Part shown: positions 26,044 to 42,974 of the stretch, in pieces
Layout of the letters: every line of letters starts with the position of its first letter
How positions within the stretch are numbered: position 1 is the stretch's first letter
From: Aquimarina sp. MAR_2010_214
GTDB taxonomy: Bacteria; Bacteroidota; Bacteroidia; Flavobacteriales; Flavobacteriaceae
Direction of reading: 5' to 3'
Length of the DNA: 64,000 nucleotides
Assembly: GCF_002846555.1 (NCBI RefSeq)
Contig: NZ_PJMS01000001.1
Location: 3,472,001-3,536,000 of the forward strand
Program-made: the position numbers and the translations under genes
Notes under the pieces: model-generated
Seen by the model: the letters and a program-made list of their open reading frames with translations, nothing else
Told to the model about the DNA's origin: nothing
Database searches by the model: none

Positions 26044-26610
26044 TTATTTATAGATTTCTTTTCTAATTCTGCTAAGAGAAGAGGGAGTAACACCCAAAAA
26101 TAAAGATAAATCTTTAAGAGGGACTCTATTAATAAGATCTGATCTTTTTAGGAGGTCTAGATATCGTTCTTTAGCAGTAAGGGATTGAAAATTATGAATA
26201 CCATAGAGTACACTTGCGAAGGAATCCTCCCAAACAAGCCTCCCGAATTTTTGCCAAATAGGAAAACGTTCATAGAGGTTTTCCATATTCTGATATGTAA
26301 TTGTATACAAAACAGTATCTTCTATTGCTCTTATATAAGAATCAGAGCGAGCCTTTGATTTTATTTTTGAAATATCGGCAATGAGTTCATTTTCAAAAGC
26401 AAAATATCTTGTTGATTGAATATCATTTTTTATATCATATATGATGAGTCCTCCAGAATCTACAAAATAATAATCTGTTACCAATTGTTCCTTTTTTAAA
26501 ACAAATTGCCCTTTTGCAATACGTCTCTGTTTGAAAAAAGAGCGTGCTATTTCTAATTCTTTTTCAGTAATGCTTACATAACTTTTAATGTAATTAGTTA
26601 GTTTTTCCAT
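26044..26610 (-). CDS. Crp/Fnr-family transcriptional regulator
   Basis: 188 aa. A cyclic-nucleotide-binding-like beta roll (residues about 15-110) is followed by a winged helix-turn-helix with the recognition segment LKDLSLFLGVTPSSLSRIRKEI. There is no cysteine, so no FNR-type iron-sulfur cluster can form. The recognition helix has S-S-x-x-S-R where FNR has E-x-x-S-R. It belongs to the large group of Bacteroidetes Crp-like regulators whose ligands are unknown. A perfect FNR-type palindrome (TTGAT-N4-ATCAA) lies 66 bp upstream of its start, but no -7 element with the right spacing accompanies it. Confidence 0.88.
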   Translation of the reverse strand: MEKLTNYIKSYVSITEKELEIARSFFKQRRIAKGQFVLKKEQLVTDYYFVDSGGLIIYDIKNDIQSTRYFAFENELIADISKIKSKARSDSYIRAIEDTVLYTITYQNMENLYERFPIWQKFGRLVWEDSFASVLYGIHNFQSLTAKERYLDLLKRSDLINRVPLKDLSLFLGVTPSSLSRIRKEIYK

Positions 26611-26675: not shown

Positions 26676-26689
26676 TTGATAAAAATCAA
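26676..26689. promoter_or_regulatory. FNR-type palindrome TTGAT-AAAA-ATCAA
   Basis: An exact match to the FNR/CRP-type consensus TTGAT-N4-ATCAA, between the end of the methyltransferase gene and the start of the Crp/Fnr gene, centre 72 bp before that start. Unlike the sites at 29377, 42338 and 42488 it lacks a TAnnTTTR element 29.5 bp away. It may be an autoregulatory site or chance in AT-rich DNA. Confidence 0.4.
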
Positions 26690-29376: not shown

Positions 29377-29420
29377 ATGATATAAATCATATTTGTCTAT
29401 AACTCCTTTTTTTATTTTTA
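29377..29420 (+). promoter_or_regulatory. FNR-type box and -7 element of the norC-norB-nirS promoter
   Basis: The palindrome ATGAT-ATAA-ATCAT (29377-29390) matches TTGAT-N4-ATCAA at all but the outermost bases. Its centre is exactly 29.5 bp before TATTTTTA at 29413-29420, a TAnnTTTG-like -7 element with A in the last place. If transcription starts 6-8 bp after that element, the box is near -42, the usual place for class II activation by an FNR/CRP-type protein. The same geometry occurs at 42338 and 42488. A short palindrome ATAAAAAG-GT-CTTTTTAT (29432-29449) lies in the leader before norC. Confidence 0.7.
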
Positions 29421-29472
29421 CAAAATTAAAGATAAAAAGGTCTTTTTATACTAATTTAAATTAATAGTAACT

Positions 29473-29907
29473 ATGTTATCTAAAAAACAAGCACGAAATT
29501 TCTTTTTGGGAGGAACATTGGTCACTTTTTTAGCATTTATTGGATTGACAATATACTCTTTTAGTGAGGATCAGGATCAATCAAATTACACCGAAATAAC
29601 AGAACAGGTGGTGCGAGGAAAAACACTGTGGGAAACCAACAACTGTATGGGGTGTCATACTATTTTGGGAGAAGGAGCCTATTACGCACCAGAATTAACA
29701 AAGGTTTTAGATCGAAGGGGAGAAGGATATGTAAAAGCAGTTTTAATGACCCCTGTTCCTTGGGCGCCTAATGGTAGAAAAATGGTTGCTTATGGTTTTT
29801 CTGAGGAAGAAGCAGGTGATCTTATCGCCTTTTTTGACTGGATTGATGATATAGATCTTAATGGTTTTGATACTGTCGTGTCTCCATTAGCAAAAGACAA
29901 AAACTAA
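29473..29907 (+). CDS. norC: Nitric oxide reductase cytochrome c subunit NorC
   Basis: 144 aa. One N-terminal membrane helix (about residues 11-29) is followed by a cytochrome c domain with the heme motif CMGCH (Cys58, Cys61, His62) and the likely axial methionine in GRKMVAYGF. It feeds electrons to NorB. It is the first gene of the nor/nir cluster, 19 bp before norB, and the FNR-type promoter at 29377 lies upstream. The first residues (SKKQARNFFLGG) are typical of NorC. Confidence 0.94.
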   Translation: MLSKKQARNFFLGGTLVTFLAFIGLTIYSFSEDQDQSNYTEITEQVVRGKTLWETNNCMGCHTILGEGAYYAPELTKVLDRRGEGYVKAVLMTPVPWAPNGRKMVAYGFSEEEAGDLIAFFDWIDDIDLNGFDTVVSPLAKDKN

Positions 29908-29926
29908 CTAATTAAAATATACATAG

Positions 29927-31276
29927 ATGAAATATAAATCTCAAAAAGTAGCGTATTGGTTCTTTGCCTTATCTATGCTACTGTTAGTCTTACAAATTAC
30001 TTATGGATTTATTATGGGCTTTGCTCGTATTGGCATGGATGGATTACATGAGTTTATTCCTTTTAATACAGCCAGAGCAGTGCATACCAATTTATTAGTA
30101 GTTTGGTTGTTATCAGGGTTCATGGGAGCAGCATATTATATCATTCCCGAAGAAGCTCAACGAGAATTGGTAAATGTGAAATTAGCTTATGTACAACTAA
30201 TTTCTTTGGCCTTAGTAGGTGTTGCAGCTATAATTGGTTATCATTTTAATTGGTGGGAAGGGCGTAAATTCCTAGAAATACCTAGACAATTGGACTACTT
30301 AGTCGTTATTAATGTATTGTTATTTTTAGGATTAATATTAGCCACTTTGTTTAAAGGTAAACGAAGAACGACTACGGCTTTGGTACTCTCTATGGGATTA
30401 TTATTTGCCGCTCTACTTTATATTCCAGGAATGCTTCCTTTTGATAGCCAGGTAACAGATTCTTTCTTTCGTTGGTGGGTAGTACATTTATGGGTAGAAG
30501 GTGTTTGGGAGTTGATCATGGGAGGGATCTTATCGTTCTTATTAATCAAGCTTACCGGAGTAGATCGAGAAGTTATCGAAAAGTGGTTATATGTAATTGT
30601 AGGATTAACATTCTTATCAGGCGTTTTAGGAACAGGACACCATTACTATTATATAGGGGTGAATAAGATATGGTTAATTGTCGGAGGTATATTCTCTGCA
30701 CTAGAACCTTTAGCATTCTTGGCAATGGCACTATTTGCGGTAAATATGTATCGTAAAGGCGAAAAAAGACATCCCAATAAACTTGCTTTATTCTGGACTT
30801 TAGGGGCTGCTATTGTATCATTTTTAGGTGCTGGGTTATTAGGTTTTGCTCATACCTTACCTCAAACTAATTTATACACACACGGAACCCTAGTAACAGC
30901 TATGCATGGTCATCTTGCTTTTTGGGGCGCATATGCTATGATCGTTCTTGCTATTATTAGTTATAGTTTACCCAATATGACTGGTAGAAAATTATACCTA
31001 AGTCCGCGCGGAAGAGCTGCTTTTTGGTTGTCGAATATCGGTATGATAGGGATGACAGTTGCTTTTGGAGTTGCAGGAGTAGCACAGGTATACTTAGAAC
31101 GTAAGTTCAAAATGGATTTTATGCAAGTGCAAAACGAAATAAGCATTCATTTTGTAGTACTTCTTCTATGTGCTACAGTATTAACAATTGGTATAGTATT
31201 ATACATTATGGATTTTATAAAACATGGTCGCCCTAATGATGAAGCTATAGAATTACAAGACGAATCATATAATTAA
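29927..31276 (+). CDS. norB: Nitric oxide reductase large subunit NorB (cNOR)
   Basis: 449 aa with twelve hydrophobic helices. All metal ligands known from Pseudomonas NorB are visible: His53 and His329 (low-spin heme b), His327 (heme b3), and His187, His238, His239 plus Glu191 (FeB, in HLWVEGVWE and GTGHHYYY). The spacing between them is the same as in the Pseudomonas protein. It reduces two NO to N2O at the inner membrane with electrons from NorC. There is no quinol-oxidase-type N-terminal extension, so this is the cytochrome c-dependent type. Confidence 0.95.
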   Translation: MKYKSQKVAYWFFALSMLLLVLQITYGFIMGFARIGMDGLHEFIPFNTARAVHTNLLVVWLLSGFMGAAYYIIPEEAQRELVNVKLAYVQLISLALVGVAAIIGYHFNWWEGRKFLEIPRQLDYLVVINVLLFLGLILATLFKGKRRTTTALVLSMGLLFAALLYIPGMLPFDSQVTDSFFRWWVVHLWVEGVWELIMGGILSFLLIKLTGVDREVIEKWLYVIVGLTFLSGVLGTGHHYYYIGVNKIWLIVGGIFSALEPLAFLAMALFAVNMYRKGEKRHPNKLALFWTLGAAIVSFLGAGLLGFAHTLPQTNLYTHGTLVTAMHGHLAFWGAYAMIVLAIISYSLPNMTGRKLYLSPRGRAAFWLSNIGMIGMTVAFGVAGVAQVYLERKFKMDFMQVQNEISIHFVVLLLCATVLTIGIVLYIMDFIKHGRPNDEAIELQDESYN

Positions 31277-31284
31277 TTGATATC

Positions 31285-32943
31285 ATGAAAAACTTAAAAC
31301 TAAACGTATTATGTATTGCTTTGTTAGCAATTGCAGTGAGTTGCAAAAGCGATAAAAAAGGAGGAGAACCTGATTATTCTAAAAAAGTAGACACAGAAAC
31401 AACTAAGGGGATTCAAATATCTGATGCAGAAATAGAAAGAGGTAGTCAAATCTATTTTGATAAATGTGCAGGATGTCACGGATCAAGTAGAAAAGGAGCT
31501 ACAGGACCTTCATTATTACCTGATGGAGATGGGAAATATGTATCTATGAAAAATCTGGGCACGGCTGGGATTAGAACCTTTATAGAAAACGGTACTCCTA
31601 GTGGTATGCCGGAGTGGAAAGGTATTTTGCCAGAAAATGATATTGAATTACTAACACGTTTTTTACAGGTAGATCCACCTGCAATTCCACCGTATGGAAT
31701 TGGTGAAATAAAGGCAAGTTGGAAATTAATAGTTCCTGTTGCAGATAGACCTACCAAACCAGAACATAAAAGAAATATAGATAATTATTTCGGAGTGATC
31801 ATGAGGGATGCTGGTAAAGTGGCTATAATAGATGGAGATACAAAAGAAAAATTAGCCGTACTTAAGACCGGTTTTGCGGTTCATATTTTAAGAACTTCTG
31901 CTTCTGGAAGATATATTTATTCTGTTGGGAGGGATGGTAGAATAACGATGATAGATACCTATACCGAAACACCAACCATTGTTGCAGAAGTTAAAGGTGG
32001 TTTTGATGCACGTTCTGTAGAGGTGTCAAAATATAAAGGTTTCGAAGATAAATATCTGGTCTTTGGAGGATATAGCCCAAGTCATATAGCTATTTTGGAT
32101 GCTCAGACATTAGAACCTTTAAGTGTAACCACAACATCGGGTAATGCATGTGATGGAGAGAAAGAATTTATAGAAGAAGCCCGTGTAGCATCGATTGTGG
32201 CATCACATACAGATCCGGTATGGATTTGTAATGTGAAAGAAACAGGGATGGTTTGGATTGTAGACTACACAGATCCTAGAAAACCAGAGATGACTCAAAT
32301 TCCTTCAGCAAGGTTTTTGCATGATGGAGGATGGGATTCTACAGGACATTATTTCTTAGTTGCAGCAAATGCCAGTAATAAAATTGTAGTGATTGATGTA
32401 CCTAATAAAAAATTGGTAAAAATCATAGAAACAGGTATCAAACCTCACCCGGGGAGAGGAACAAATATTAAAAACAAATTAGGAAATCTTTGGGTAACTT
32501 CTCACTTAGGAGAAAATAAACTATCGTTTATTAAGACGAATCCGGGAGAGGGGCAATGGACAGTTGTTAAAGAAGCCAAAGCTCCTGGTAGTGGTGGTGG
32601 AGCACTATTTGTAAAATCACATCCAAAATCTAAAAATTTATGGGTCGATAGAACATTAAATCCAGATGCCAAATTAAACTCTGTAGTTGATGTTTTTGAT
32701 ACGAATACATTAGAGTTAAAGAAAACACTTCCTGCTCCAGAAGGAGTAAACGGTAGAGCCGTTCATATGGAATACAATAAAGCAGGTAATGAAGTTTGGG
32801 TTTCTTATTTTATGGGAGAGAAAAGTGCTGTAGTAATCTATAATGATAAAACACTAAAAGTTAAACAAATCATTCAGGGGGATTGGGTAGAAAACCCAAC
32901 TGGTAAGTTTAATGTTTACAATACAACCCACGATATTTACTAA
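31285..32943 (+). CDS. nirS: Cytochrome cd1 nitrite reductase NirS, predicted lipoprotein
   Basis: 552 aa. A c-type heme domain (CAGCH, Cys61-His65) is followed by the eight-bladed d1-heme propeller. The propeller shows VHILRTSASGRY, ARSVEVSKYKGFEDKY, the two active-site histidines His346 in FLHDGGWDS and His388 in KPHPGRGTN, and the terminal FNVYNTTHDIY. All match Pseudomonas NirS closely. It reduces nitrite to NO. Unlike soluble periplasmic NirS it starts with a lipoprotein signal (ALLAIAVS-CKSD), so it is probably membrane-anchored. It lies 8 bp after norB; a hairpin follows. No heme d1 synthesis genes (nirF, D/L, G, H, J, E) are in the window. Confidence 0.94.
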   Translation: MKNLKLNVLCIALLAIAVSCKSDKKGGEPDYSKKVDTETTKGIQISDAEIERGSQIYFDKCAGCHGSSRKGATGPSLLPDGDGKYVSMKNLGTAGIRTFIENGTPSGMPEWKGILPENDIELLTRFLQVDPPAIPPYGIGEIKASWKLIVPVADRPTKPEHKRNIDNYFGVIMRDAGKVAIIDGDTKEKLAVLKTGFAVHILRTSASGRYIYSVGRDGRITMIDTYTETPTIVAEVKGGFDARSVEVSKYKGFEDKYLVFGGYSPSHIAILDAQTLEPLSVTTTSGNACDGEKEFIEEARVASIVASHTDPVWICNVKETGMVWIVDYTDPRKPEMTQIPSARFLHDGGWDSTGHYFLVAANASNKIVVIDVPNKKLVKIIETGIKPHPGRGTNIKNKLGNLWVTSHLGENKLSFIKTNPGEGQWTVVKEAKAPGSGGGALFVKSHPKSKNLWVDRTLNPDAKLNSVVDVFDTNTLELKKTLPAPEGVNGRAVHMEYNKAGNEVWVSYFMGEKSAVVIYNDKTLKVKQIIQGDWVENPTGKFNVYNTTHDIY

Positions 32944-32952
32944 ATATTTTAT

Positions 32953-32991
32953 GCCCATTGATAGTGTATGATAATACTTCTGTCAATGGGC
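32953..32991 (+). terminator. Hairpin after nirS
   Basis: GCCCATTGA / TCAATGGGC with a 21-nt loop, followed by TTTATAAAT. It lies 10 bp after the nirS stop and 23 bp before the TonB receptor start. It may be a partial terminator or an mRNA-stabilising structure that separates expression of norCB-nirS from the genes downstream. Confidence 0.6.
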
Positions 32992-33013
32992 TTTATAAAT
33001 AAAAAGAAAAAAT

Positions 33014-35014
33014 ATGAGAGCCTATCGATTAGTATTAGGTATGCTTTTAGTATATACATCGAGTTTTGCTCAAAAAAAAGAGCGCGATTCTGTAGATGTA
33101 GAACAACTAGAAGAAGTTGTGATTACGGCACAATATACACCATATTCAGAAAAAAACGCAGTATATAAAGTACATGCAATACCTTCAAAAACAATTCAAA
33201 AAAAAGCAGCTAATAACTTAAGAGAATTATTACAACAAGAATCAAATATAGATTTATCACAAAACTCGGTTTTTGGTACAAGTATAGAAATACAAGGAAT
33301 TTCAAAAGAAAACATAAAAATTCTAAAGGATGGAGTCCCTTTTATGGGAAGACTAAATGGTATTATTGATTTAAATCAAATCAATCTATCAAGTATTGAA
33401 AGAGTCGAAATTATTGAAGGCCCTGTGTCTGTTTTTTATGGAACAGATGCTTCTGGAGGAATTATAAATCTTATTTCTAAGAAAAATCAAACTGAAATCC
33501 TTAAAGGAGATGTATCTACTTATTATGAAGATATTAATGCTTTAACGGTTAATGGAAACCTGGGGTATAAATTTGGAAAAAACCAATTGAATCTTAATGG
33601 AGGTTATTATGATTTTGATGGATTAAGCACTAACGACGCTCTTAGAAATCTTAACTGGGAAGAAAGGAATCAATATTTTGGAGGAATTTCATATACGAGG
33701 AATTTTGGCAAATTAGACGTAGTCTACGACGGAAATTTCTCTAAAGAAAAGTTGTTTTCTGTCGGAGATCCAGATAGGAGAGGAGATATTAAAGATAAAG
33801 ATTATCATACCAGAAGAATTGATAATAATTTGAACATAAAAGGAGATATATTTAATAACAAATTTATAACTGCAACTGTTTCATATCTAGATTATCAAAG
33901 ATATCATGACACTTTTGATGTTGATCCAACGACTTTAGAACGTAAACTATCAGAGAGTGATAGCAAAGAAGATAATATTGTCAAATTTAATTACTCGGGA
34001 GTAAAGGCGCAATTAGGTAAAAATGTACAATCTGAAGTTGTTAACTATGCTTTCGGGACCGATATTAATAATGAATATACAAAAGGAAGTAGAATTTTGG
34101 ATGAAGAACAATCGTTATTTACTTCGGCTTTTTACGGAAGCTTAAATTATAAACTAACGAAAAACCTGGAAGTTCAACCAGCTGCCAGATATACATGGAA
34201 TAGTAATTATGGCTCATTGCTTTCACCAGCATTTAATACGCTTTATAAATTAGGGAATAATCATAAGATACGTCTTTCGTATGCACAAGGTTTTAGAGCA
34301 CCTTCTTTAAAAGAGACTTATTTAGATTTTCAAATAAGTGCAGGCCCAGTGACTTATATTATAAATGGAAACGAAGATCTGGAGGTAGAAAAATCAAATA
34401 GTTTTAATTTGAATTATAATTTTCACCAACCATTAGGTGTTTCTAAATACTTTTCTGTAGAACCATCATTTTTCTATAATGAAATTTCAAATTTGATAGC
34501 TTTAAGTGAATTTGTTGATAATGAAAGACAATACATCAATATTGACAAATTTAAATCTTTGGGAGGTACACTCAAACTTTCTTATAAACCTATTACATCT
34601 TTATTAGTAAAAACAAATTTTTCATTAATAGGGCGATACAATAAATACAATGAGAAATTCGATTCTATTGAATATCTATATTCTCCCGAGGTCTCTGTGA
34701 ATTTAAGTTATGAGCTTGAAAAAGTAAGTGTAGCATTGGATGTCTTCTATAAATTTTCTGGCGAAAGAGAAGGGTTTATTATTGACCCAGATAATGCAAA
34801 TAATTTGATGAAGACGACTAGAAAAAGTTTTAATAATCTAAACACAACTATTTCTAAAAGATTTTTTAAAAACTCTTTCATAGCTTCTATAGGAGCCAAA
34901 AACTTATTTGATGTACAGGATATTGAAGCAGTAGATGAAGCAGGTAGTGCTCACTCCAGAAATATGCAATTATGGGGTAGGTCGTTTTTTGTAAAAACAA
35001 GTTATCGTTTTTAG
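33014..35014 (+). CDS. TonB-dependent receptor inside the denitrification cluster
   Basis: 666 aa. A signal peptide (about residues 1-19, ending SFAQ) and a short TonB-box-like stretch (EEVVITAQ) precede a plug domain (NLRELLQQ, IEIQGISKENIKILKDGVP, VEIIEGPVSVFYGTDASGGIINLIS). The rest is a barrel ending in a terminal strand with C-terminal phenylalanine (VKTSYRF). It has no carboxypeptidase-regulatory N-terminal domain. Such receptors import metal chelates, heme, vitamin B12 or copper carriers. Its place between nirS and norQ suggests it supplies a cofactor metal or heme for NirS or NorB. That is inference; the ligand cannot be read. Confidence 0.9.
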   Translation: MRAYRLVLGMLLVYTSSFAQKKERDSVDVEQLEEVVITAQYTPYSEKNAVYKVHAIPSKTIQKKAANNLRELLQQESNIDLSQNSVFGTSIEIQGISKENIKILKDGVPFMGRLNGIIDLNQINLSSIERVEIIEGPVSVFYGTDASGGIINLISKKNQTEILKGDVSTYYEDINALTVNGNLGYKFGKNQLNLNGGYYDFDGLSTNDALRNLNWEERNQYFGGISYTRNFGKLDVVYDGNFSKEKLFSVGDPDRRGDIKDKDYHTRRIDNNLNIKGDIFNNKFITATVSYLDYQRYHDTFDVDPTTLERKLSESDSKEDNIVKFNYSGVKAQLGKNVQSEVVNYAFGTDINNEYTKGSRILDEEQSLFTSAFYGSLNYKLTKNLEVQPAARYTWNSNYGSLLSPAFNTLYKLGNNHKIRLSYAQGFRAPSLKETYLDFQISAGPVTYIINGNEDLEVEKSNSFNLNYNFHQPLGVSKYFSVEPSFFYNEISNLIALSEFVDNERQYINIDKFKSLGGTLKLSYKPITSLLVKTNFSLIGRYNKYNEKFDSIEYLYSPEVSVNLSYELEKVSVALDVFYKFSGEREGFIIDPDNANNLMKTTRKSFNNLNTTISKRFFKNSFIASIGAKNLFDVQDIEAVDEAGSAHSRNMQLWGRSFFVKTSYRF

Positions 35015-35047
35015 TGATAAACAAATTAAATCATAATAGTGAATAAC

Positions 35048-35164
35048 AAGGTCTAGAAAGTGATCCCAAGTTAGTGTTTTACTAGTTTGTATAAAACTTA
35101 GAATATTCTGTGAAGCCCCCATATCAAAGTTACTTCTGTTTTATACGATCACTTTTTAGACCTT
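35048..35164. repeat. Long imperfect inverted repeat between the TonB receptor gene and norQ
   Basis: The left arm at 35048-35065 is complementary to 35147-35164 with one mismatch in 18 bp (AAGGTCTAGAAAGTGATC against GATCACTTTTTAGACCTT). The right arm continues with GTTTTATAC (35138-35146), complementary to GTATAAAAC at 35089-35097. The 117-bp unit can therefore fold into a bulged hairpin of about 27 bp with a 40-nt apical loop. It fills most of the 160-bp gap. It could be a regulatory RNA structure, a processing site or a small MITE-like element; no target-site duplication was identified. Confidence 0.75.
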
Positions 35165-35177
35165 ATATAAATGTTTG

Positions 35178-36002
35178 ATGATGCCAAGTATTACAACTGA
35201 AGAAAAAAATAATATTAATTCTAAGAAATTAATGATACCATTCTATAAACCAATAAAAAAGGAAATAGAAGTTTTTGAACATTCTTACAAAAGCAAAATT
35301 CCGTTTTTATTAAAAGGACCTACAGGTACCGGTAAATCAAGGTTTATTGAGTATATGGCGTATCAATTAAGCAAGCCCCTAATTACAGTTAGTTGTCATG
35401 AAGAGACCTCTTCTACAGATTTAATAGGTAGGTATATTATCAAAGGAGCCGAGACCATCTGGTTGGACGGCCCATTAACTACCGCAGTTAAAACAGGAGC
35501 CATTCTTTATTTGGATGAAATTGCAGAGGCAAGACCAGATGTGATTGTTGCTATTCACTCACTTACAGATCATAGAAGAGAATTGTTTATCGATAAATTA
35601 GGAGAAACCATAAAAGCGCACCCAGATTTTATGTTAGTTGCCTCTTTTAATCCAGGGTATCAACGAGGGTTTAAAGAGTTAAAACCTTCAACAAGGCAGC
35701 GTTTTGTGGCAATATCTTTTGATTATCCAGATTCTAAAATCGAAGCAGATATTTTGATAAATGAAACAGATATTCTTCCGGCTGATGCCAAAAAACTAGT
35801 AAATATTGCAAACAAAATTAGAAACTTAACCGAGTTAGGCTTAACTGAAACCGTTTCTACACGACTGCTGGTAGATGCCGCAAAATTAATTCATTCTGGT
35901 TTGCCAAAACGTCTCGCAGCACATGTGGCTATCGTAGAACCTCTCACAGATGATCTTGAGGTGATCAATGCTTTAAAAGATCTATGTGACTTGATGATAT
36001 AA
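35178..36002 (+). CDS. norQ: NorQ/NirQ/CbbQ-type AAA+ ATPase
   Basis: 274 aa from the ATG at 35178; another ATG follows at 35181, and a TTG at 35175 is less likely. Walker A KGPTGTGKS is at about residues 46-54, Walker B is ILYLDEIAEA, and the MoxR/CbbQ signature includes TSSTDLIGRY and FNPGYQRGFKELKPSTRQRF. NorQ works with the VWA protein NorD to activate nitric oxide reductase, probably by inserting the non-heme iron. norD follows after 27 bp. The family call is firm. Confidence 0.93.
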   Translation: MMPSITTEEKNNINSKKLMIPFYKPIKKEIEVFEHSYKSKIPFLLKGPTGTGKSRFIEYMAYQLSKPLITVSCHEETSSTDLIGRYIIKGAETIWLDGPLTTAVKTGAILYLDEIAEARPDVIVAIHSLTDHRRELFIDKLGETIKAHPDFMLVASFNPGYQRGFKELKPSTRQRFVAISFDYPDSKIEADILINETDILPADAKKLVNIANKIRNLTELGLTETVSTRLLVDAAKLIHSGLPKRLAAHVAIVEPLTDDLEVINALKDLCDLMI

Positions 36003-36029
36003 TTTAAAATATAGAATGTTTGGTAATGA

Positions 36030-37853
36030 ATGTTTAGCTACACTATACCGAAATGTAACAGATCAATATTAGAAAACATGTTTGAGTTTGAACCAGATGA
36101 ATATATCTTTACCAAGTTTGCCCATTATTTCAAACGGCGTAGAAAGAAAAAGGAAGCAAACTTGGCTTATGCAATAACATTAAATGACATAAAACCTCGT
36201 TTAACCATTTTTGCAAGAGCCATTACAGGTAAACCTATCGAAATTTATGAAGCTGAAAGAGAAGGTGGTTATAAAAATAACAACTTCTTTTTACCTTCAA
36301 AATATGCTGAATTCTTATCAGTCGAAGAAAATATTTCTTTTTATCTGTTCAGGGTATTGTATCTAGCTACTCAAAAAAATTTAGATTTGAATTGGAATGA
36401 CACCTCAGAACATTCTGTAGACGAATCCCGAACACTAGCCTTAGATACTTCATCAAAAGTACTGAAGTATTTATTTGAAGACTTTCCGATCACCGAGAAT
36501 TATTATCAAAAATTCATAGAATATTATACCAAAAAAACTAAAAAAGAAACACCAGTAGATTATTCATTTATTTATGGGAAGTGGATGCGCAATATTCCTG
36601 AAGAAATGCTCAATGATACTTTGAATAACTTCACCGAAAAAATAAAAACTACTAATCCAGAGCAGCCAAAAACAACGTTGAAAGCTAATGCGGTAGAGGA
36701 AATAATTTCAATTCAGATAGATGAAAAACAAGTAGAAGATGCTGTCTTACAACATCAGTTTGAAAAGGTGGAAACGGCAGATGAATTCGGAGGGAATTTC
36801 AGAAACATGGATGGAGATGATGAGCTAGATGATCATGCTAATGCTTTAGAAGATTTAAATATGAAGTACACTGTGCGAGTTGATGACACCGCACATTCGG
36901 TTTATCAGGCGGATTTTATAGAAAATACAACCATTGCAGAAAGTGCCGAAAGAAATGAAAAAGGATATTTTATCCCTTATGATGAATGGGATTATGCAAA
37001 GCGCACCTATAAAGACAATTTCTGTAAAGTATATCCCAAAACCATTCTAAAAACAGATGTAGAATATTATAAAAAAACAATATCTAAGAATGGATCTACG
37101 CTGCTTGGTTTACGAAAAATGTTGACAACAGTTAATAATAGATACCAACAGCAACGTAGACAAACACAAGGAGAAGAATTTGATTTAGATGCCATAACCG
37201 ATTTGTTTGTCGATGTACATTCTGGAGTAACTCCATCTGAAAAAATATATTTATCAAAACAAAAAAAAGAAAAAGACCTATCCATTTTACTATTGTTAGA
37301 TAGTAGTTTATCTAGTGATGGCTATGCTGCTGGTAATCGGGTTATCGATGTAGAAAAACAAGTTTCCATTCTTTTTGGTGAAATATTAGATGAATTTAAT
37401 ATCGATTTCTCAATCAATTGTTTCTATTCGAAAACCAGAAATCATTCTAGTTATGTAACAATCAAAGGTTTTGATGATAATTGGAGTAAAGCAAAATTTA
37501 AAATAGGAGCTGTAGAGCCTGGAGGATATACTCGCATAGGACCGGCACTTCGACATTCGGGAGCATTATTGGATAAAAGAAATACGAAGAACAAATGGAT
37601 TATTCTTATTTCTGATGGAAAACCAAATGATTATGATAGATATGAAGGGAAATATGGAATCAATGATATAAAACAAGCCTTACGAGAACTTAATGAACGC
37701 CAAATAAATTCATATGCCCTGGCAATTGAAGCACAGGCAAAATACTATTTGCCACAGATGTTTGGGCAAAACCATTATCAAATTTTAACAACACCAGTAG
37801 AACTACTACAATCATTAGTAAAACTCTACGAGAAGATTAAACACCAAAATTAA
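36030..37853 (+). CDS. norD: NorD, VWA-domain nitric oxide reductase activation protein
   Basis: 607 aa. The C-terminal von Willebrand A domain has the MIDAS motif DSSLS (Asp424 to Ser428), RIGPALRH with the MIDAS threonine region (GGYTRIGPALR), and LISDGKPND. The N-terminal half is helical and charged, as in other NorD proteins. It pairs with the AAA+ ATPase NorQ. The stop codon is directly followed by the ATG of the next gene, so the genes from norD to norE form one run with no spacer (37853/37854, 38828/38829, 39353/39354). Confidence 0.92.
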   Translation: MFSYTIPKCNRSILENMFEFEPDEYIFTKFAHYFKRRRKKKEANLAYAITLNDIKPRLTIFARAITGKPIEIYEAEREGGYKNNNFFLPSKYAEFLSVEENISFYLFRVLYLATQKNLDLNWNDTSEHSVDESRTLALDTSSKVLKYLFEDFPITENYYQKFIEYYTKKTKKETPVDYSFIYGKWMRNIPEEMLNDTLNNFTEKIKTTNPEQPKTTLKANAVEEIISIQIDEKQVEDAVLQHQFEKVETADEFGGNFRNMDGDDELDDHANALEDLNMKYTVRVDDTAHSVYQADFIENTTIAESAERNEKGYFIPYDEWDYAKRTYKDNFCKVYPKTILKTDVEYYKKTISKNGSTLLGLRKMLTTVNNRYQQQRRQTQGEEFDLDAITDLFVDVHSGVTPSEKIYLSKQKKEKDLSILLLLDSSLSSDGYAAGNRVIDVEKQVSILFGEILDEFNIDFSINCFYSKTRNHSSYVTIKGFDDNWSKAKFKIGAVEPGGYTRIGPALRHSGALLDKRNTKNKWIILISDGKPNDYDRYEGKYGINDIKQALRELNERQINSYALAIEAQAKYYLPQMFGQNHYQILTTPVELLQSLVKLYEKIKHQN

Positions 37854-38828
37854 ATGAACTCTTTTTTATCAGAAATAGAAAAATTACCAGAGGGACATCC
37901 GGTAAAAGTGTATTATCAGGAAAGTGAACTAATTCAGGAATTATTATCAGAATTATACGAAGCAGATGCGGTAAAAGATTTTCAAAAGTATTTTAATATA
38001 TTCAATCAGCTAACTACAATAGAAAAACGATTTGCTCGAAAAGAAAACCAATTATTTCCCTACTTAGAAAAGCATGGTTGGAATGGCCCCAGTCGTGGTA
38101 TGTGGTCGTTTCATGATAATTTAAGAGACCAGATAAGGTTATTGAATACGTACAATGCAGAGAGAAATACTTCTAAAATATCAGAAAACCTTCCATATTT
38201 AATTGAAGGTATAAAACGTCTTTTGATTATCGAAGATATGCGATTATTTCCTAATGCTATGCAAATACTTTCCGAAGCAGACTGGAAAGAGTTTTATGAA
38301 GGAGACGAAGAAATGGGGTGGATGTTATCCGAAAAACCAATTCCATATCCTGAAAGAGAAGCATCATATATTCATCCAAGCGAAGATTTTACAGAACGTG
38401 ATTTATCTTTTTCGTTAGAGAATACTTTTCATTATGATGAAGGATATATGACTCCTGATCAGGTAAACTTATTACTTCGATATTTACCAGTTGATATTAC
38501 ATATGTAGATGAAAATGATAAAGTTATTTTTTATAATCGGGGAGAGGATAGGGTTTTTCCCAGAAGTAAAGGAATTATAGGAAGAGAAGTTCGTTTTTGT
38601 CATCCGCCCAAAAGTGTGGATATGGTATTGCGTATTGTAGATGAATTTAGAGCAGGTACAAAAGATGTTGCAGAGTTCTGGTTTAATTATAGAGGTCAGG
38701 TAATTCATATCAGATACTTTGCTATTAGAGATAAAAACAAAAATTATAAAGGAGTTATCGAAATGTCTCAGGATGTAACCGATATTCAAAAACTGAAAGG
38801 TGAAAAACGATTGTTAGATTGGGATTAA
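37854..38828 (+). CDS. DUF438/hemerythrin-like protein with a C-terminal PAS domain
   Basis: 324 aa. The N-terminal 80 residues resemble DUF438. A hemerythrin-like helical region follows with candidate metal ligands in RKENQLFPYLEKHGW, MWSFHDNLRDQI and IEDMRLFPN. The C-terminus is a PAS domain of the PAS_10 type (LPVDITYVDENDKVIFYNRGEDRVFPRSKG is its start, then GREVRFCHPPKSVD). There is no kinase, cyclase or DNA-binding output domain. In other bacteria DUF438-hemerythrin proteins are linked to nitrosative stress and low oxygen. Its place between norD and norE suggests a role in sensing or handling NO or iron, which is inference. Confidence 0.85.
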   Translation: MNSFLSEIEKLPEGHPVKVYYQESELIQELLSELYEADAVKDFQKYFNIFNQLTTIEKRFARKENQLFPYLEKHGWNGPSRGMWSFHDNLRDQIRLLNTYNAERNTSKISENLPYLIEGIKRLLIIEDMRLFPNAMQILSEADWKEFYEGDEEMGWMLSEKPIPYPEREASYIHPSEDFTERDLSFSLENTFHYDEGYMTPDQVNLLLRYLPVDITYVDENDKVIFYNRGEDRVFPRSKGIIGREVRFCHPPKSVDMVLRIVDEFRAGTKDVAEFWFNYRGQVIHIRYFAIRDKNKNYKGVIEMSQDVTDIQKLKGEKRLLDWD

Positions 38829-39353
38829 ATGAAATATCAGGGTAAGAATATTGTAATAATGCTATTTGTTTTTGTGTTACTCCTCGCTTGTAAGCAAAAC
38901 ACAAAAGAGTATTCATTAGTGTTTGTGAAAAATAATGAGGTACAGTACTCTGATTTAAAAACTTTAGACGCTCCCGAAAAAGTATTATTGTCTTGGTATT
39001 TATATGCCTATGGAAATGAATGTAATACCAATTCTTTAAAAGTCAAGTGTCAATTATTAAAAGAAATGAATATCAATGATGAATGTAACCCCGAGCATTT
39101 AAATACTTTATTACAATGGTTTTCTGGTGATATGTTGGTGGTGTATAAATTAAATAGATGTCCCAATATGGCAGTTAATTCAGCCATTCAAAATACGATA
39201 GATGATATCACTTTAGTAAGATCATCAGATACATTGTCTATTACAATCAAAGTGAGAGGGGTAAACGAATCTCAGGAAAAAAGCTGGAATATAGTTCAAA
39301 CGGAGACTTTTTTAATAAAAGAAAGAAATTTGCAAAGAATAAAAAGACAATAA
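38829..39353 (+). CDS. Lipoprotein of unknown function in the nor operon
   Basis: 174 aa. The lipoprotein signal is KNIVIMLFVFVLLLA-CKQN. The mature part has four further cysteines (YGNECNTNSLKVKCQLLK, NDECNPEH, LNRCPNM) and no known domain. It is fused head-to-tail without spacer between the DUF438/PAS gene and norE, so it is almost surely co-expressed with NO reductase. A periplasmic accessory or assembly role is inferred only from position; the cysteines may form disulfides or bind metal. Confidence 0.75.
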   Translation: MKYQGKNIVIMLFVFVLLLACKQNTKEYSLVFVKNNEVQYSDLKTLDAPEKVLLSWYLYAYGNECNTNSLKVKCQLLKEMNINDECNPEHLNTLLQWFSGDMLVVYKLNRCPNMAVNSAIQNTIDDITLVRSSDTLSITIKVRGVNESQEKSWNIVQTETFLIKERNLQRIKRQ

Positions 39354-39935
39354 ATGAAAATATCAGAAATAGATCATAAAAACATATTTTATCCACCGGG
39401 AGGAATCTTGTTATGGATCATCATTTATTTGGAATTATTAACCTTTGGAATTGCTTTGATTGTTATGGTGTTTTATGGTAAGCAAGAACCAGATATTTTT
39501 CATACTTCGAGATTACTATTAAATCCCACTTTTGGGATGATGAATACTATTTTTTTATTGACAAGTGGTTTTTTAATGGCAATAAGTGTACGAGAACTGA
39601 AAACTCAGAATACACAAAAAGCAAAACAATACTTATTGTTGACAATGTTTTTTGGAATGCTTTTTTTACTATTAAAAACTATTGAATATTATGATAAAAT
39701 TGAAGCTGGTTTAGGTATGGGATATAATACTTTTTTTAGTTTTTATTGGATGCTTACCCTTTTTCATGTAGTACATGTTATTGTTGGTTTGGTGATTTTG
39801 ATTACCATTTATTATGGAATCCTAAAAGAAAAAAAATCAACCACAATTGAAGATGTAGAAGCCAGTGCTGCATTTTGGCATATGTGCGATTTAATATGGT
39901 TACTTCTTTTTCCTATAATGTATTTACTTTTTTAA
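39354..39935 (+). CDS. norE: NorE-like cytochrome c oxidase subunit III family protein
   Basis: 193 aa with five hydrophobic helices. The COX3 family is recognisable from PPGGILLWIIIYLELLTFG at the start, LLNPTFGMMNTIFLLTSGF and FHVVHVIVGLVILI, ending in ASAAFWHMCDLIWLLLFPIMYLLF. NorE-type proteins accompany NO reductase and support its activity without being core subunits. It follows the lipoprotein gene without a spacer; norF begins 2 bp after its stop. Confidence 0.9.
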   Translation: MKISEIDHKNIFYPPGGILLWIIIYLELLTFGIALIVMVFYGKQEPDIFHTSRLLLNPTFGMMNTIFLLTSGFLMAISVRELKTQNTQKAKQYLLLTMFFGMLFLLLKTIEYYDKIEAGLGMGYNTFFSFYWMLTLFHVVHVIVGLVILITIYYGILKEKKSTTIEDVEASAAFWHMCDLIWLLLFPIMYLLF

Positions 39936-39937
39936 AA

Positions 39938-40171
39938 ATGAACAAAACTGCAATATATACCTGGATTCTTTTATTAATACTTACTGTAGTATCTGCTTTA
40001 TTTTCTCAAGTTGAAGGGAAGTATATTGTTCTTGTTATCCTGATCCTATCAGTATTGAAATTTATTGGTGTTGCTTTTCAGTTTATGGAACTTAAAAATG
40101 CTCATTCCTTTTGGAAATATGCAATCATTTTTTTTGTTTTACTTTTTATGGTAATTGTAATGATTATATAA
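39938..40171 (+). CDS. norF: NorF-like cytochrome c oxidase subunit IV family protein
   Basis: 77 aa from the ATG at 39938; a longer frame starting at 39875 overlaps norE and is unlikely. Three hydrophobic segments (about residues 6-24, 29-47, 55-76) with the motif GVAFQFMELKNAHSFWK match the prokaryotic COX4 family, which includes NorF. It closes the nor/nir cluster. No terminator is obvious in the 60 bp before the convergent acyl-CoA synthetase gene. Confidence 0.85.
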   Translation: MNKTAIYTWILLLILTVVSALFSQVEGKYIVLVILILSVLKFIGVAFQFMELKNAHSFWKYAIIFFVLLFMVIVMII

Positions 40172-40231
40172 ATTGTTTGTTATTATATAAAACTGGGTAA
40201 TTTTTATTTTTTCAACCAAGCAATATAATTC

Positions 40232-42289
40232 TTATTTTACAATGTTTATACGTATGTCTACGGCAGTAATCGCTTTTTGTGTTCCCATTAGGGGGTTGAT
40301 ATCCATTTCTACTATTTCAGGAGCTGCTTCTACCAGTGCAGAGATACGTTGAATGATTTCAATAAAGAGGGTTTCGCTAACGCCCTCTTTACCACGAATA
40401 CCTTGAATTAGCTTATAGCCTTTTAATGAGGCAATCATTGCTTGTATTTCTGGTTTTGATAAAGGACTTAAACCTGCAGTAACATCATTCATGATTTCAA
40501 TATAAATACCTCCTAGTCCACATAGTATAGTATGATTAAAGCCAGGTTCTTTTTTAACTCCAACAAATAATTCGATACCGCTGAGCATAGCTTGAATCAT
40601 AACACCGGTAGCATTGTTAATTTGCATGAGCTTATCAAAGTTTTGAGTAACTTCTTCTATAGAATTTACATTCAAAATAACGCCCTGTGCATCTGATTTA
40701 TGTAAAGGGCCAACGACCTTCATTACTAATGGAAAATTCATCTTTGAAGCTTCAGTTATCAAAGTTTCTTTGTTAGATTCAACAATTTCTATAACTCTAG
40801 GTACACCAGCAGCATCCAAAAGTTGAGTTGCTTCAAAAGGTGATAAGTAGCCTGATTTAGCATTATCGATAACAGCTCTTATTTTCTTTACATCAACATT
40901 TGGCAATTGTACATCTTCTGTAGTAGGTGGTGGAGTTTTATATACTTGAGCTAAAGCTTTCCCTAAAACTACTTCATCAGGAAAGTTAATATTTCCTTTT
41001 TCTAAAAATGTATTGATTTCTTTTCGAGCATTTATAACTGATGGCAATACAGGAAAAATTGGTTTTTTACAAATATCCAATTTTACACTTAGTACATTGT
41101 AAACATTTTCTACATCAAACAATCCAGGGCTACCAAAAACTACAGCCATAGCATCTATATGATCAAACTTATGCTCACAATAATCAATAATAATACCCAA
41201 TTGTTCTGCTGTTCCTGTAGCTAGAAAATCAATGGGGTTGCTCACCGAAGAACCTGGGTATAAAAAACTCTCAAGTGTTTTTGCATCTTTACCCTCGATA
41301 ACCGGTATTTCTAATCCGCCTTTTGAGAGTTCATCAGATAGCATTACTGCAGAACCACCCGCATGCGTAATTATCGCAATATTTTTACCTTTAAGAGGCT
41401 TATAATTAAAAATTGAAGCTACACTTAATAATTCTTCTCTGCTACTACAATACACTATTCCTGCTTTTTTAAACAAGGCTCTTACCGTCATATCAGAGCT
41501 TGCTATAGCACCTGTGTGAGAAGAGGCAGCTCTACTACCTTCGGCTGTGCTTCCTGCTTTTATTGCTGCTATTTTAGCCCCTTTTCGAATTAGAGAGGAG
41601 GCATGTTTTAATAGTTTTTGCGGATTTTTAATTGCTTCTAAATAAAGTAGTTTAACTTGCGGATCGATGTTTGGATCATAATTCGTATCCATATATTCAA
41701 GTATTTCCTCTACACCTGTTTGAGCCGCATTTCCTACTGAATATACATTGGCAAATTTTACACCTAAAGATGCTCCTGCTTCCATAATAAAAACTGCTGT
41801 CGCCCCAGAACTTGAGATTAAATCACAACCTTTTTTATTATACTCGGGAATGGGAGTTGTAAAAACTCCTTTATATTTTTCGCATAAAACACCAATACAA
41901 TTTGGACCAATTAAACAGCCATTTACACTATTTACAAGATTGGCAATTTCTTTTTCTAATTGTTGTCCTTCTTCATTAGTTTCTGAGAATCCAGCAGAAA
42001 TAATTATGAATGCTTTTGTGTTTTTCTGTAGCGCTAAAACACGTACTGTTTCTAAACAATATTTAGATGGTATTGCCAGTATAGCCAAATCTGTATTAGG
42101 AATATCATTAACAGAGTGATAACTTTTTATTCCTTGTACTTTATCCTCCTTTGGATTTATAATATTAAGTTTTCCTTCGAACCCTCCCTCAAGAATATTT
42201 TTTACAATTTTTCCTCCAGGTTTTTTAATATCATTAGAACCACCAACAATAACAATGTTTTTGGGGTCTAGTAATTGTCTATTTATCAT
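40232..42289 (-). CDS. ADP-forming acetate/acyl-CoA synthetase (fused alpha-beta)
   Basis: 685 aa from the ATG at 42289, which starts directly before the CoA-binding domain (LLDPKNIVIVGGSNDIKKPGG); an upstream ATG at 42331 would add a hydrophobic stretch. Domains in order are CoA-binding, succinyl-CoA ligase-like with the phospho-histidine in ASSHTGAIASSD, and a C-terminal ATP-grasp domain (FEATQLLDAAGVPRV onwards). It would convert acetyl-CoA or other acyl-CoA plus ADP and phosphate to acid, CoA and ATP. It is divergent from a CBS gene, and both promoters have FNR-type boxes, which suits ATP gain under low oxygen. Confidence 0.92.
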   Translation of the reverse strand: MINRQLLDPKNIVIVGGSNDIKKPGGKIVKNILEGGFEGKLNIINPKEDKVQGIKSYHSVNDIPNTDLAILAIPSKYCLETVRVLALQKNTKAFIIISAGFSETNEEGQQLEKEIANLVNSVNGCLIGPNCIGVLCEKYKGVFTTPIPEYNKKGCDLISSSGATAVFIMEAGASLGVKFANVYSVGNAAQTGVEEILEYMDTNYDPNIDPQVKLLYLEAIKNPQKLLKHASSLIRKGAKIAAIKAGSTAEGSRAASSHTGAIASSDMTVRALFKKAGIVYCSSREELLSVASIFNYKPLKGKNIAIITHAGGSAVMLSDELSKGGLEIPVIEGKDAKTLESFLYPGSSVSNPIDFLATGTAEQLGIIIDYCEHKFDHIDAMAVVFGSPGLFDVENVYNVLSVKLDICKKPIFPVLPSVINARKEINTFLEKGNINFPDEVVLGKALAQVYKTPPPTTEDVQLPNVDVKKIRAVIDNAKSGYLSPFEATQLLDAAGVPRVIEIVESNKETLITEASKMNFPLVMKVVGPLHKSDAQGVILNVNSIEEVTQNFDKLMQINNATGVMIQAMLSGIELFVGVKKEPGFNHTILCGLGGIYIEIMNDVTAGLSPLSKPEIQAMIASLKGYKLIQGIRGKEGVSETLFIEIIQRISALVEAAPEIVEMDINPLMGTQKAITAVDIRINIVK

Positions 42290-42307
42290 AAATCTGTTGA
42301 TTTGAAA

Positions 42308-42351
42308 CAAAAATAACTCGACCAACATCACTTATTTATGACTTATATCAT
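42308..42351 (-). promoter_or_regulatory. FNR-type box and -7 element of the acyl-CoA synthetase promoter
   Basis: On the minus strand the palindrome ATGAT-ATAA-GTCAT (42351-42338) has its centre exactly 29.5 bp before TATTTTTG (42315-42308), a perfect TAnnTTTG. The left half-site and N4 spacer (ATGAT-ATAA) are the same as in the norC box. The start codon at 42289 is 18 bp further on. It was found by taking the norC spacing and looking at the predicted place. Confidence 0.7.
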
Positions 42352-42487
42352 ATTATTTCTAGTTTGAATTAAAATTAGTAAATGTTAATGTAAGATAGAC
42401 TTACCAAATACTTTTTAGAGTTTATTGAATACTATTTATGTGTAGATTTTTACTACGAAAAAACAAGCAATTTTTTATACATATAAG

Positions 42488-42531
42488 CTGATATTTATCA
42501 TAATAATTCTGTGAGTTTGATGCTACCTTTA
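42488..42531 (+). promoter_or_regulatory. FNR-type box and -7 element of the CBS-protein promoter
   Basis: The palindrome CTGAT-ATTT-ATCAT (42488-42501) has its centre exactly 29.5 bp before TACCTTTA (42524-42531), the same TAnnTTTA form as in the norC promoter. The start codon is at 42555. It fits class II activation by an FNR/CRP-type protein. Confidence 0.65.
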
Positions 42532-42554: not shown

Positions 42555-42974
42555 ATGAAAAAAAGAACACCTGTTTCCAAAATTATGACTTCCGATGTAA
42601 TAACTTTAAATCACACTAATGGTTTAGAAACAGCGGAAAAGTTATTTAAAGATAATAATATTCGTCATATTCCTGTAGTAAGTGGTAATGCTATTACTGG
42701 TATGTTAAGCTACACAGACTTACTACGTATTAGTTTTGCAGATGCGGTAGATGTAGATGAGCGTGATGTTGATACTGTAGTTTATGAAATGTTTACTATA
42801 GAACAGGTAATGGCAAAAAACCTGATTAGCGTAAACTCTAATACTACAATCAAAGAAGTTGCAGAAATATTATCGAAGAAAGAATTTCATGCACTACCAG
42901 TAGTAGATAATGGTAAATTGGTTGGTATTGTTACAACTACAGATTTAATAAATTATTTACTAGAACAATTCTAA
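42555..42974 (+). CDS. Two-CBS-domain protein
   Basis: 139 aa consisting of a CBS pair: PVSKIMTSDVITLNHTN through HIPVVSGNAITGMLSYTDLL, then EQVMAKNLISVNSNTT through HALPVVDNGKLVGIVTTTDLI. Such proteins bind adenine nucleotides and act as energy sensors for partner enzymes. It is divergent from the ADP-forming acyl-CoA synthetase gene, and both have the same FNR-type promoter layout, so it may modulate that enzyme or another part of low-oxygen metabolism. The partner is inference. Confidence 0.93.
   Translation: MKKRTPVSKIMTSDVITLNHTNGLETAEKLFKDNNIRHIPVVSGNAITGMLSYTDLLRISFADAVDVDERDVDTVVYEMFTIEQVMAKNLISVNSNTTIKEVAEILSKKEFHALPVVDNGKLVGIVTTTDLINYLLEQF

Follow-up and report, generated by a model that had tools for sequence, protein, structure and literature searches.

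What do the promoters of norC, of an ADP-forming acyl-CoA synthetase (ACD) and of a small CBS-domain protein share in Aquimarina sp. MAR_2010_214, and which regulator reads them? The three genes lie in a stretch of 64,000 nucleotides (the window, C1:3472001-3536000) of a genome made of a single contig of 5,982,454 bp. A first reading from the letters alone (the sequence-only reading) had proposed that each promoter carries an FNR-type box at an identical distance from a -7 element, and the sequence and a pattern scan recover all three. On the forward strand, the norC promoter has its box TGATATAAATCA at 29378..29389 and, 23 bp below it, the -7 element TATTTTTA at 29413..29420. The ACD promoter, on the reverse strand, has its box TGATATAAGTCA at 42339..42350 and its -7 element TATTTTTG at 42308..42315, and the CBS promoter, again on the forward strand, combines TGATATTTATCA (42489..42500) with TACCTTTA (42524..42531). 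In each case, the -7 element begins 29.5 bp from the centre of the box. We argue that these are probably class II FNR-type promoters of a family-wide low-oxygen regulon, whose most likely activator in this genome would be a receiver domain fused to a Crp-type protein.

We searched for a composite pattern consisting of TGAYNNNNRTCA (TGAY-N4-RTCA), a 23-bp gap and TANNTTTR. The window contains three exact matches, whereas 100 dinucleotide shuffles of it gave 0.03 on average and never more than 1. When box/-7 pairs were sought genome-wide at gaps of 8-38 bp, 97 were found, versus 40 with the reversed pattern used as a control. Gap 23 holds 30 of the 97; with gaps 22-24 set aside, each of the remaining 28 gaps holds 2.2 on average (Poisson p ~6e-24). 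All but one of these sites (29 of 30) lie outside open reading frames (ORFs) of at least 150 amino acids, compared with 20 of 61 at gaps other than 22-24; gaps 22 and 24 add six sites, four of them outside such ORFs. A called ORF start follows within 110 bp in 24 of the 30 gap-23 sites. Conservation also extends beyond the bases that we searched for: among 26 gap-23 sites outside ORFs with a called start at most 350 bp downstream, TCA is followed by T (24/26), by A or T (26/26), by T or G (23/26) and, in fourth place, by T (21/26). This stretch presumably occupies the place where a -33 element would be expected.

The same arrangement recurs in related genomes. In a sample of 120 Flavobacteriaceae genomes, one per genus, gap-23 sites occur in 110; they number 1676 in all, and the reversed pattern gives 64. 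In G083, for which only the second regulator described below (A) was detected, gap 23 accounts for 24 of 61 matches and no other gap for more than three. A wider sample of 296 genomes from the phylum gave 492 sites against 23 in the control for the same family (30 genomes), 32 against 1 for the same order (6 genomes) and 173 against 16 for the same class (37 genomes). In the other classes, 4 of 223 genomes have five or more sites by our reading of the counts. Could the pattern be a chance product of AT-rich intergenic DNA? Both of its motifs are AT-rich and the reversed pattern does find its 40 matches over all gaps, but the single-gap peak (30 versus 2.2), the 1676 sites versus 64, the extra conserved bases and the link between site number and regulator presence (see below) refute this explanation, to which we give practically no credence. 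The original claim about the sequence is right, and stronger than first stated; the pattern is neither frequent in shuffled sequence nor common inside genes.

The part of a study of Flavobacterium psychrophilum start sites that we used (PMC9723704) places the sigma-A motif TAnnTTTG at -12 to -5. If its first base also lies at -12 in Aquimarina, another flavobacterium, the centre of the box falls at -41.5, the class II position, in agreement with the placement proposed earlier. A palindromic TGAY-N4-RTCA box, centred there and held at a rigid distance from the core promoter, is what a class II promoter would be predicted to look like.

Two proteins are candidates for reading this geometry. Regulator B, of 353 amino acids, is encoded on the reverse strand of the source genome (G000) at C1:335018-336076 and is a receiver-cNMP-HTH_Crp fusion, with the Pfam domains Response_reg, cNMP_binding and HTH_Crp_2. 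Its gene lies directly below that of a 411-amino-acid PAS histidine kinase, and 11 of the 30 gap-23 sites lie within 52 kb of it (p ~2e-12). Regulator A is a Crp/Fnr protein, of 225 amino acids in most cases, which starts with C-x-x-C; among the genomes that carry it are eight with 12-36 sites in which no fusion was found among the candidates scored. The recognition helices of the two are nearly equal (ATESAIR in A, ATESLIR in B). The cysteines of A were read in 28 proteins from 30 loci (L159-L188; two loci lacked the text motif used): they stand at offsets 0, 3, 49, 55 and 102 in all 28 proteins and at offset 25 in 27. In Escherichia coli FNR, the cluster cysteines are C20, C23, C29 and C122. 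Offsets 0, 3 and 102 of regulator A reproduce the spacing of C20, C23 and C122, and the offset of C29 is absent; A may possess an altered Fe-S site.

Does the number of sites follow these regulators? Regulator A was called at E<=1e-35 and regulator B at E<=1e-40 in the 120 genomes, the best 17 candidates per genome being scored for B. A alone occurs in 44 genomes (median 10.5 sites), B alone in 28 (median 14.5, range 6-37) and both together in 26 of 120 (median 25), while the 22 genomes with neither have a median of 1 site, 20 of them with 0-2. The difference between genomes with A or B and those with neither is strong (Mann-Whitney p=4e-11). In the phylum sample, where the best seven candidates per genome were scored, the fusion was detected in at least 43 of the 296 genomes (16 in the same family, 1 in the same order, 26 in the rest of the class) and in none of the 223 genomes of other classes, absences that carry little weight at this depth. 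Scoring the best 17 or best 7 candidates may hide fusions; a repeat search with the Crp part alone (best 25 scored per genome) added none to the genomes with a reading frame of at least 340 amino acids. In a tree, 33 close fusions group together (support 0.97) and seven distant ones have no clear placement, so that we do not claim a single origin. One genome of another class (G387) has 28 gap-23 sites, with no receiver-Crp fusion among its best seven candidates.

The source genome has only B. Regulator A gives no match there at E<=1e-35, and inspection by eye revealed no N-terminal CxxC in the 11 proteins that match HTH_Crp_2, two of which score under the cut-off. This bears on ordinary FNR-type control, in which the three sites would simply be standard class II FNR/CRP promoters like those of proteobacteria. 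Textbook class II sites have the same box at the same -41.5 position, and the targets overlap the alphaproteobacterial FNR/FixK regulons described in part of PMC2908626. Against this, the cysteine-bearing protein has no match in the genome, and the probable regulator carries a receiver domain and is paired with a FixL-like kinase, an architecture undescribed for Bacteroidota in the titles and abstracts of the open-access literature that we searched. We consider ordinary FNR control quite unlikely. The proposal that a single FNR-type regulator serves all three promoters holds for their shared geometry; the cysteine-bearing protein of relatives has no match here, and the receiver-Crp fusion is the best candidate.

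A further alternative concerns three other Crp/Fnr proteins of this genome with a helix of E-x-x-x-R type (L024, L026 and L028). One of these might be the main activator, for example as a nitric oxide (NO) sensor of the DNR/NnrR kind, with the fusion controlling another set of genes. L028 has the helix VETVIR, which we take to be close to that of FNR, and lies between two boxes near truncated-hemoglobin-like and clpB-like genes; the helices of L024 and L026 read IES-x-x-R. The distribution of these proteins makes this alternative unlikely. A strong L028 match (E<=1e-43) exists in 26 of 120 genomes. Two of these lack both A and B, and they hold few sites (2 in G086, 5 in G051); G100 and G026, where the match occurs together with A, hold 2 sites each. 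Genomes with only B carry 6-37. L028 was therefore rejected as the main candidate for a master regulator. Close relatives of L024 are few (32-38% identity in the best other genomes), and G010, which has one and neither A nor B, has a single site; L024-like proteins are too rare for the role. The window's own Crp protein (26044-26610) was set aside since its helix, SSLSR, is not of E-x-x-x-R type.

The kinase encoded beside the fusion brings further support to the receiver-Crp fusion. Pfam recognises PAS, HisKA and HATPase_c domains, and the solved structures most similar to its PAS domain come from the heme domain of FixL (1d06, E=1.2e-13). In the alignment, H66 falls on the proximal histidine of the predicted heme site and R86 aligns with an arginine that we take to be R220 of Bradyrhizobium FixL; with H66 and R86, the kinase is of FixL type by sequence. 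We read 40 fusion genes (L209 has no readable fusion ORF). A kinase gene lies directly upstream in 38; among these 38 kinases, the aligned heme histidine is kept in 31, histidine and arginine in 29, and the HisKA histidine in all. In 23 of the 40 fusion loci, a box either coincides with the first called start or precedes it by no more than 200 bp; in three of them it is part of a full promoter with a gap of 22-24. A distant receiver-Crp subfamily (L204, L206, L208, L220, L228; 42-43% identity) lies below large kinases of 833-914 amino acids; in L206, the kinase is preceded by a complete gap-23 site.

Which genes would such a regulator control? Names were assigned with Pfam for 20 proteins (19 from the source genome, one from G017) and for the proteins of the window, and by eye for the others. 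Downstream of gap-23 sites we find FixS, a protein of cbb3 maturation, with a CcoN-like gene after it, as well as norC, ACD, the CBS protein, a cytochrome c, a ThiF/rhodanese protein, an ABC1 kinase, an MlaE permease, a PAS protein, a PilJ-domain protein and an enoyl-ACP reductase. By eye, universal stress proteins follow five of these sites, and Hsp20-like, ClpB-like and OmpW-like proteins are also among the targets. Gap-24 sites precede the kinase of the kinase/receiver-Crp pair and a multicopper-oxidase/cytochrome c protein resembling copper nitrite reductase. Some targets have no evident link to hypoxia: a BRO-N protein, a DUF3298 protein, WG-repeat proteins and a membrane-type protein of 128 amino acids that is present twice. 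The list as a whole reads as a hypoxia regulon of about 30 promoters. The link is therefore not specific to denitrification, norC, ACD and CBS being three of these promoters. The two loci of the 128-amino-acid protein (C1:2545536-2545993, L007, and 3065707-3066165, L008) have near-identical proteins and gap-23 promoters, as if gene and promoter had been copied together; the one copy scanned has no Pfam match.

In rhizobia, FixL signals to FixJ, a receiver protein of LuxR type that transcribes a separate FixK, two proteins in series. The system in Aquimarina resembles this cascade in its kinase, heme-PAS-type by sequence, its receiver domain, its Crp/Fnr-type DNA-binding part, its palindromic box of TGAY-N4-RTCA type and its targets, among them genes for cbb3, denitrification, Hsp20 and CBS-domain proteins; in addition, a gap-24 site precedes the kinase operon itself. 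It differs in host group and core promoter, and in that the receiver and the cNMP_binding/HTH_Crp_2 domains form one polypeptide. Behind what the sequence-only reading called FNR-type there is most likely a FixL/FixJ-FixK pathway, reduced to a kinase and a receiver-Crp fusion. At low oxygen, the kinase would phosphorylate the receiver domain of the fusion, whose phosphorylated dimer would then bind TGAY-N4-RTCA and, to judge from the geometry, touch RNA polymerase at TAnnTTTR in class II mode, so that cbb3 oxidase, NO-respiration genes, universal stress proteins, chaperones, ACD and the CBS protein would be made together. In other Flavobacteriaceae, regulator A would serve the same boxes, alone or beside B. 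We lean, somewhat less firmly, towards an ancient low-oxygen regulon of Flavobacteriaceae and relatives within their class, in which one fixed geometry is served by two unlike sensors, the fusion being the sole activator in many genomes, including this one, and ACD a standing member.

Proteobacterial FNR/ANR class II activation has the same box, -41.5 centre and hypoxia targets; unlike it, the source genome yielded no cysteine-bearing FNR, and TAnnTTTR at gap 23 replaces TATAAT. The regulons covered in the part of PMC2908626 that we used contain UspA, cytochrome oxidase subunits, oxygen-independent coproporphyrinogen oxidase, OmpW, Hsp20, a CBS-domain protein and FixL/FixJ, and the same text proposes that FNR was displaced by a FixK-type regulator, with Caulobacter as an example. 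Our observations agree with that proposal in the kinds of targets and in that FNR-type and FixL-dependent regulators replace one another; they differ in that both regulator types occur together in the 26 genomes mentioned above, the second one being a fusion. Neither a receiver-Crp fusion nor a TGAY-N4-RTCA regulon is described for Bacteroidota in the titles and beginnings of abstracts that our searches of the open-access literature, with few subscription papers covered, brought up. The sections of PMC8510549 considered predict that Crp/Fnr homologues in a Flavobacteriales bin act much like MalR, those of PMC1183210 and PMC12471899 contain nothing on a Crp-type output domain, and PMC9723704 reports cbb3 induction under oxygen limitation, the words FNR and CRP being absent from its main text. 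Flavobacteria are major degraders in sea and soil, and we found little experimental footing for their low-oxygen sensing. If our interpretation is true, the promoter code and two candidate sensors are now named, along with about 30 promoters targeted in one genome. A two-component kinase would act straight on a Crp-type activator, an unusual arrangement as the fusion combines two regulators kept separate in other bacteria; regulators would have been exchanged over unchanged DNA sites, and an ADP-forming acyl-CoA synthetase would be tied to NO respiration.

How well are the individual promoters conserved? Upstream of norC (29473-29907, forward strand; Pfam Cytochrom_C), the box is found in all nine relatives with a good NorC match, at -88 to -100 from the start of the match, which upholds the expected conservation. 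At gap 23, two of these have TATATTTG, the exact pattern, four have TTATTTTG or TTACTTTG (TTnnTTTG) and one has TATATTGC. The CBS protein (42555..42974, forward strand, 139 amino acids, two stretches matching Pfam CBS) fares differently: it is tied to norC and ACD by the shared geometry, but no CBS neighbour was found in 65 ACD loci at E<=1e-8, and we rejected it as a conserved partner of ACD. In three Aquimarina relatives, a nadA-like gene (by eye) occupies the CBS side of ACD.

ACD (40232..42289, reverse strand, 685 amino acids; Pfam CoA_binding_2, Succ_CoA_lig and ATP-grasp_5) starts at 42289, a start common to its relatives, which align from residue 1, and located 18 bp downstream of the -7 element; the ORF list start at 42331 was rejected as it would place that element within the gene. 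Its closest named relative is from Aquimarina aquimarini (82%). Seven of the 65 loci without a complete start were excluded from the box count. Among the other 58, a box lies within 450 bp upstream in 28, versus 2.2 expected, and 59-72 bp before the start in 20, 11 of which have the exact pattern directed at ACD. A box before ACD thus recurs in relatives; the 15 Prevotella-group loci have none. In four loci from bins assigned to Gammaproteobacteria/Lysobacterales (L059, L076, L086, L093; two from one bin), TGAC-N4-GTCA precedes ACD with TATAAT at gap 22, and the link of ACD to hypoxia therefore looks wider than Flavobacteriia. Genes norQ/norD are present within the flanks examined in 13 of the 65 ACD loci, so that the ACD-nor neighbourhood recurs in relatives; in four of these (L042, L043, L044, L092), ACD lacks an upstream box, which argues against this wider link.

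CoA-binding, ligase and ATP-grasp_5 domains stand in one chain of ACD, with no GNAT domain. The nearest solved relative is the ADP-forming 4-hydroxybutyrate-CoA ligase (PDB 8wzu, E=3.3e-83), of similar length and similar over residues 3-682. Every NCBIfam model that matched ACD stayed below its cut-off, the acetate--CoA ligase model scoring 346.9 of 1200 bits. From its domains, ACD would interconvert acyl-CoA and acid with ADP/ATP; the narrower idea that it makes ATP from acetyl-CoA is not established, given this nearest relative.

A number of observations weigh against the regulon and its activator as proposed here. The spacing is not absolute, with five gap-24 sites in the source genome, three of them before plausible targets. 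Seven of the nine norC relatives keep the box without the exact pattern, two of them having no recognisable -7 element. Seven loci of Aequorivita type have a single box near ACD, and it belongs to the promoter of a divergent gene. The comparison of site numbers ignores ancestry, and 12 of the 44 genomes with only A have five sites or fewer. Neither regulator was found in G048 (29 sites; 82% complete, 6% contaminated) or in G051 (5 sites; 88% complete). Genomes with neither regulator are often small, yet 8 of 22 reach at least 2.6 Mb. Boxes could also be shared with L024, L026 and L028. Finally, the histidine/arginine pair is absent from 9 of the 38 kinases, including all five of 833-914 amino acids, which lack both heme-PAS residues and so indicate that a second sensor type exists.

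In Aequorivita/Altibacter, a second NorC-like gene and then a NorB-like gene (NorB partly by eye) are transcribed away from ACD behind a gap-23 box of their own. Such a divergent pair is seen in L046, L035, L048 and L051, with about 20-32% identity to the window's proteins where matched, and a gap-23 site in all four. In the window itself, the small Crp/Fnr gene at 26044-26610 has a TGAY-N4-RTCA box (26677-26688) 67 bp before its start, without TAnnTTTR at gap 23. On the forward strand, norC is followed by the ORFs of norB (29927-31276; Pfam COX1) and nirS, encoding cytochrome cd1 (31285-32943; Pfam Cytochrom_D1). A TonB-dependent receptor-like gene (33014-35014, by eye), read in the same direction as its neighbours, separates nirS from norQ. 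The forward-strand ORFs within 35175..40171 then comprise norQ-like, norD-like, hemerythrin-PAS, small lipoprotein-like, norE-like (COX3) and COX4_pro genes, named from Pfam for hemerythrin/PAS, COX3 and COX4_pro and by eye for norQ, norD and the lipoprotein.

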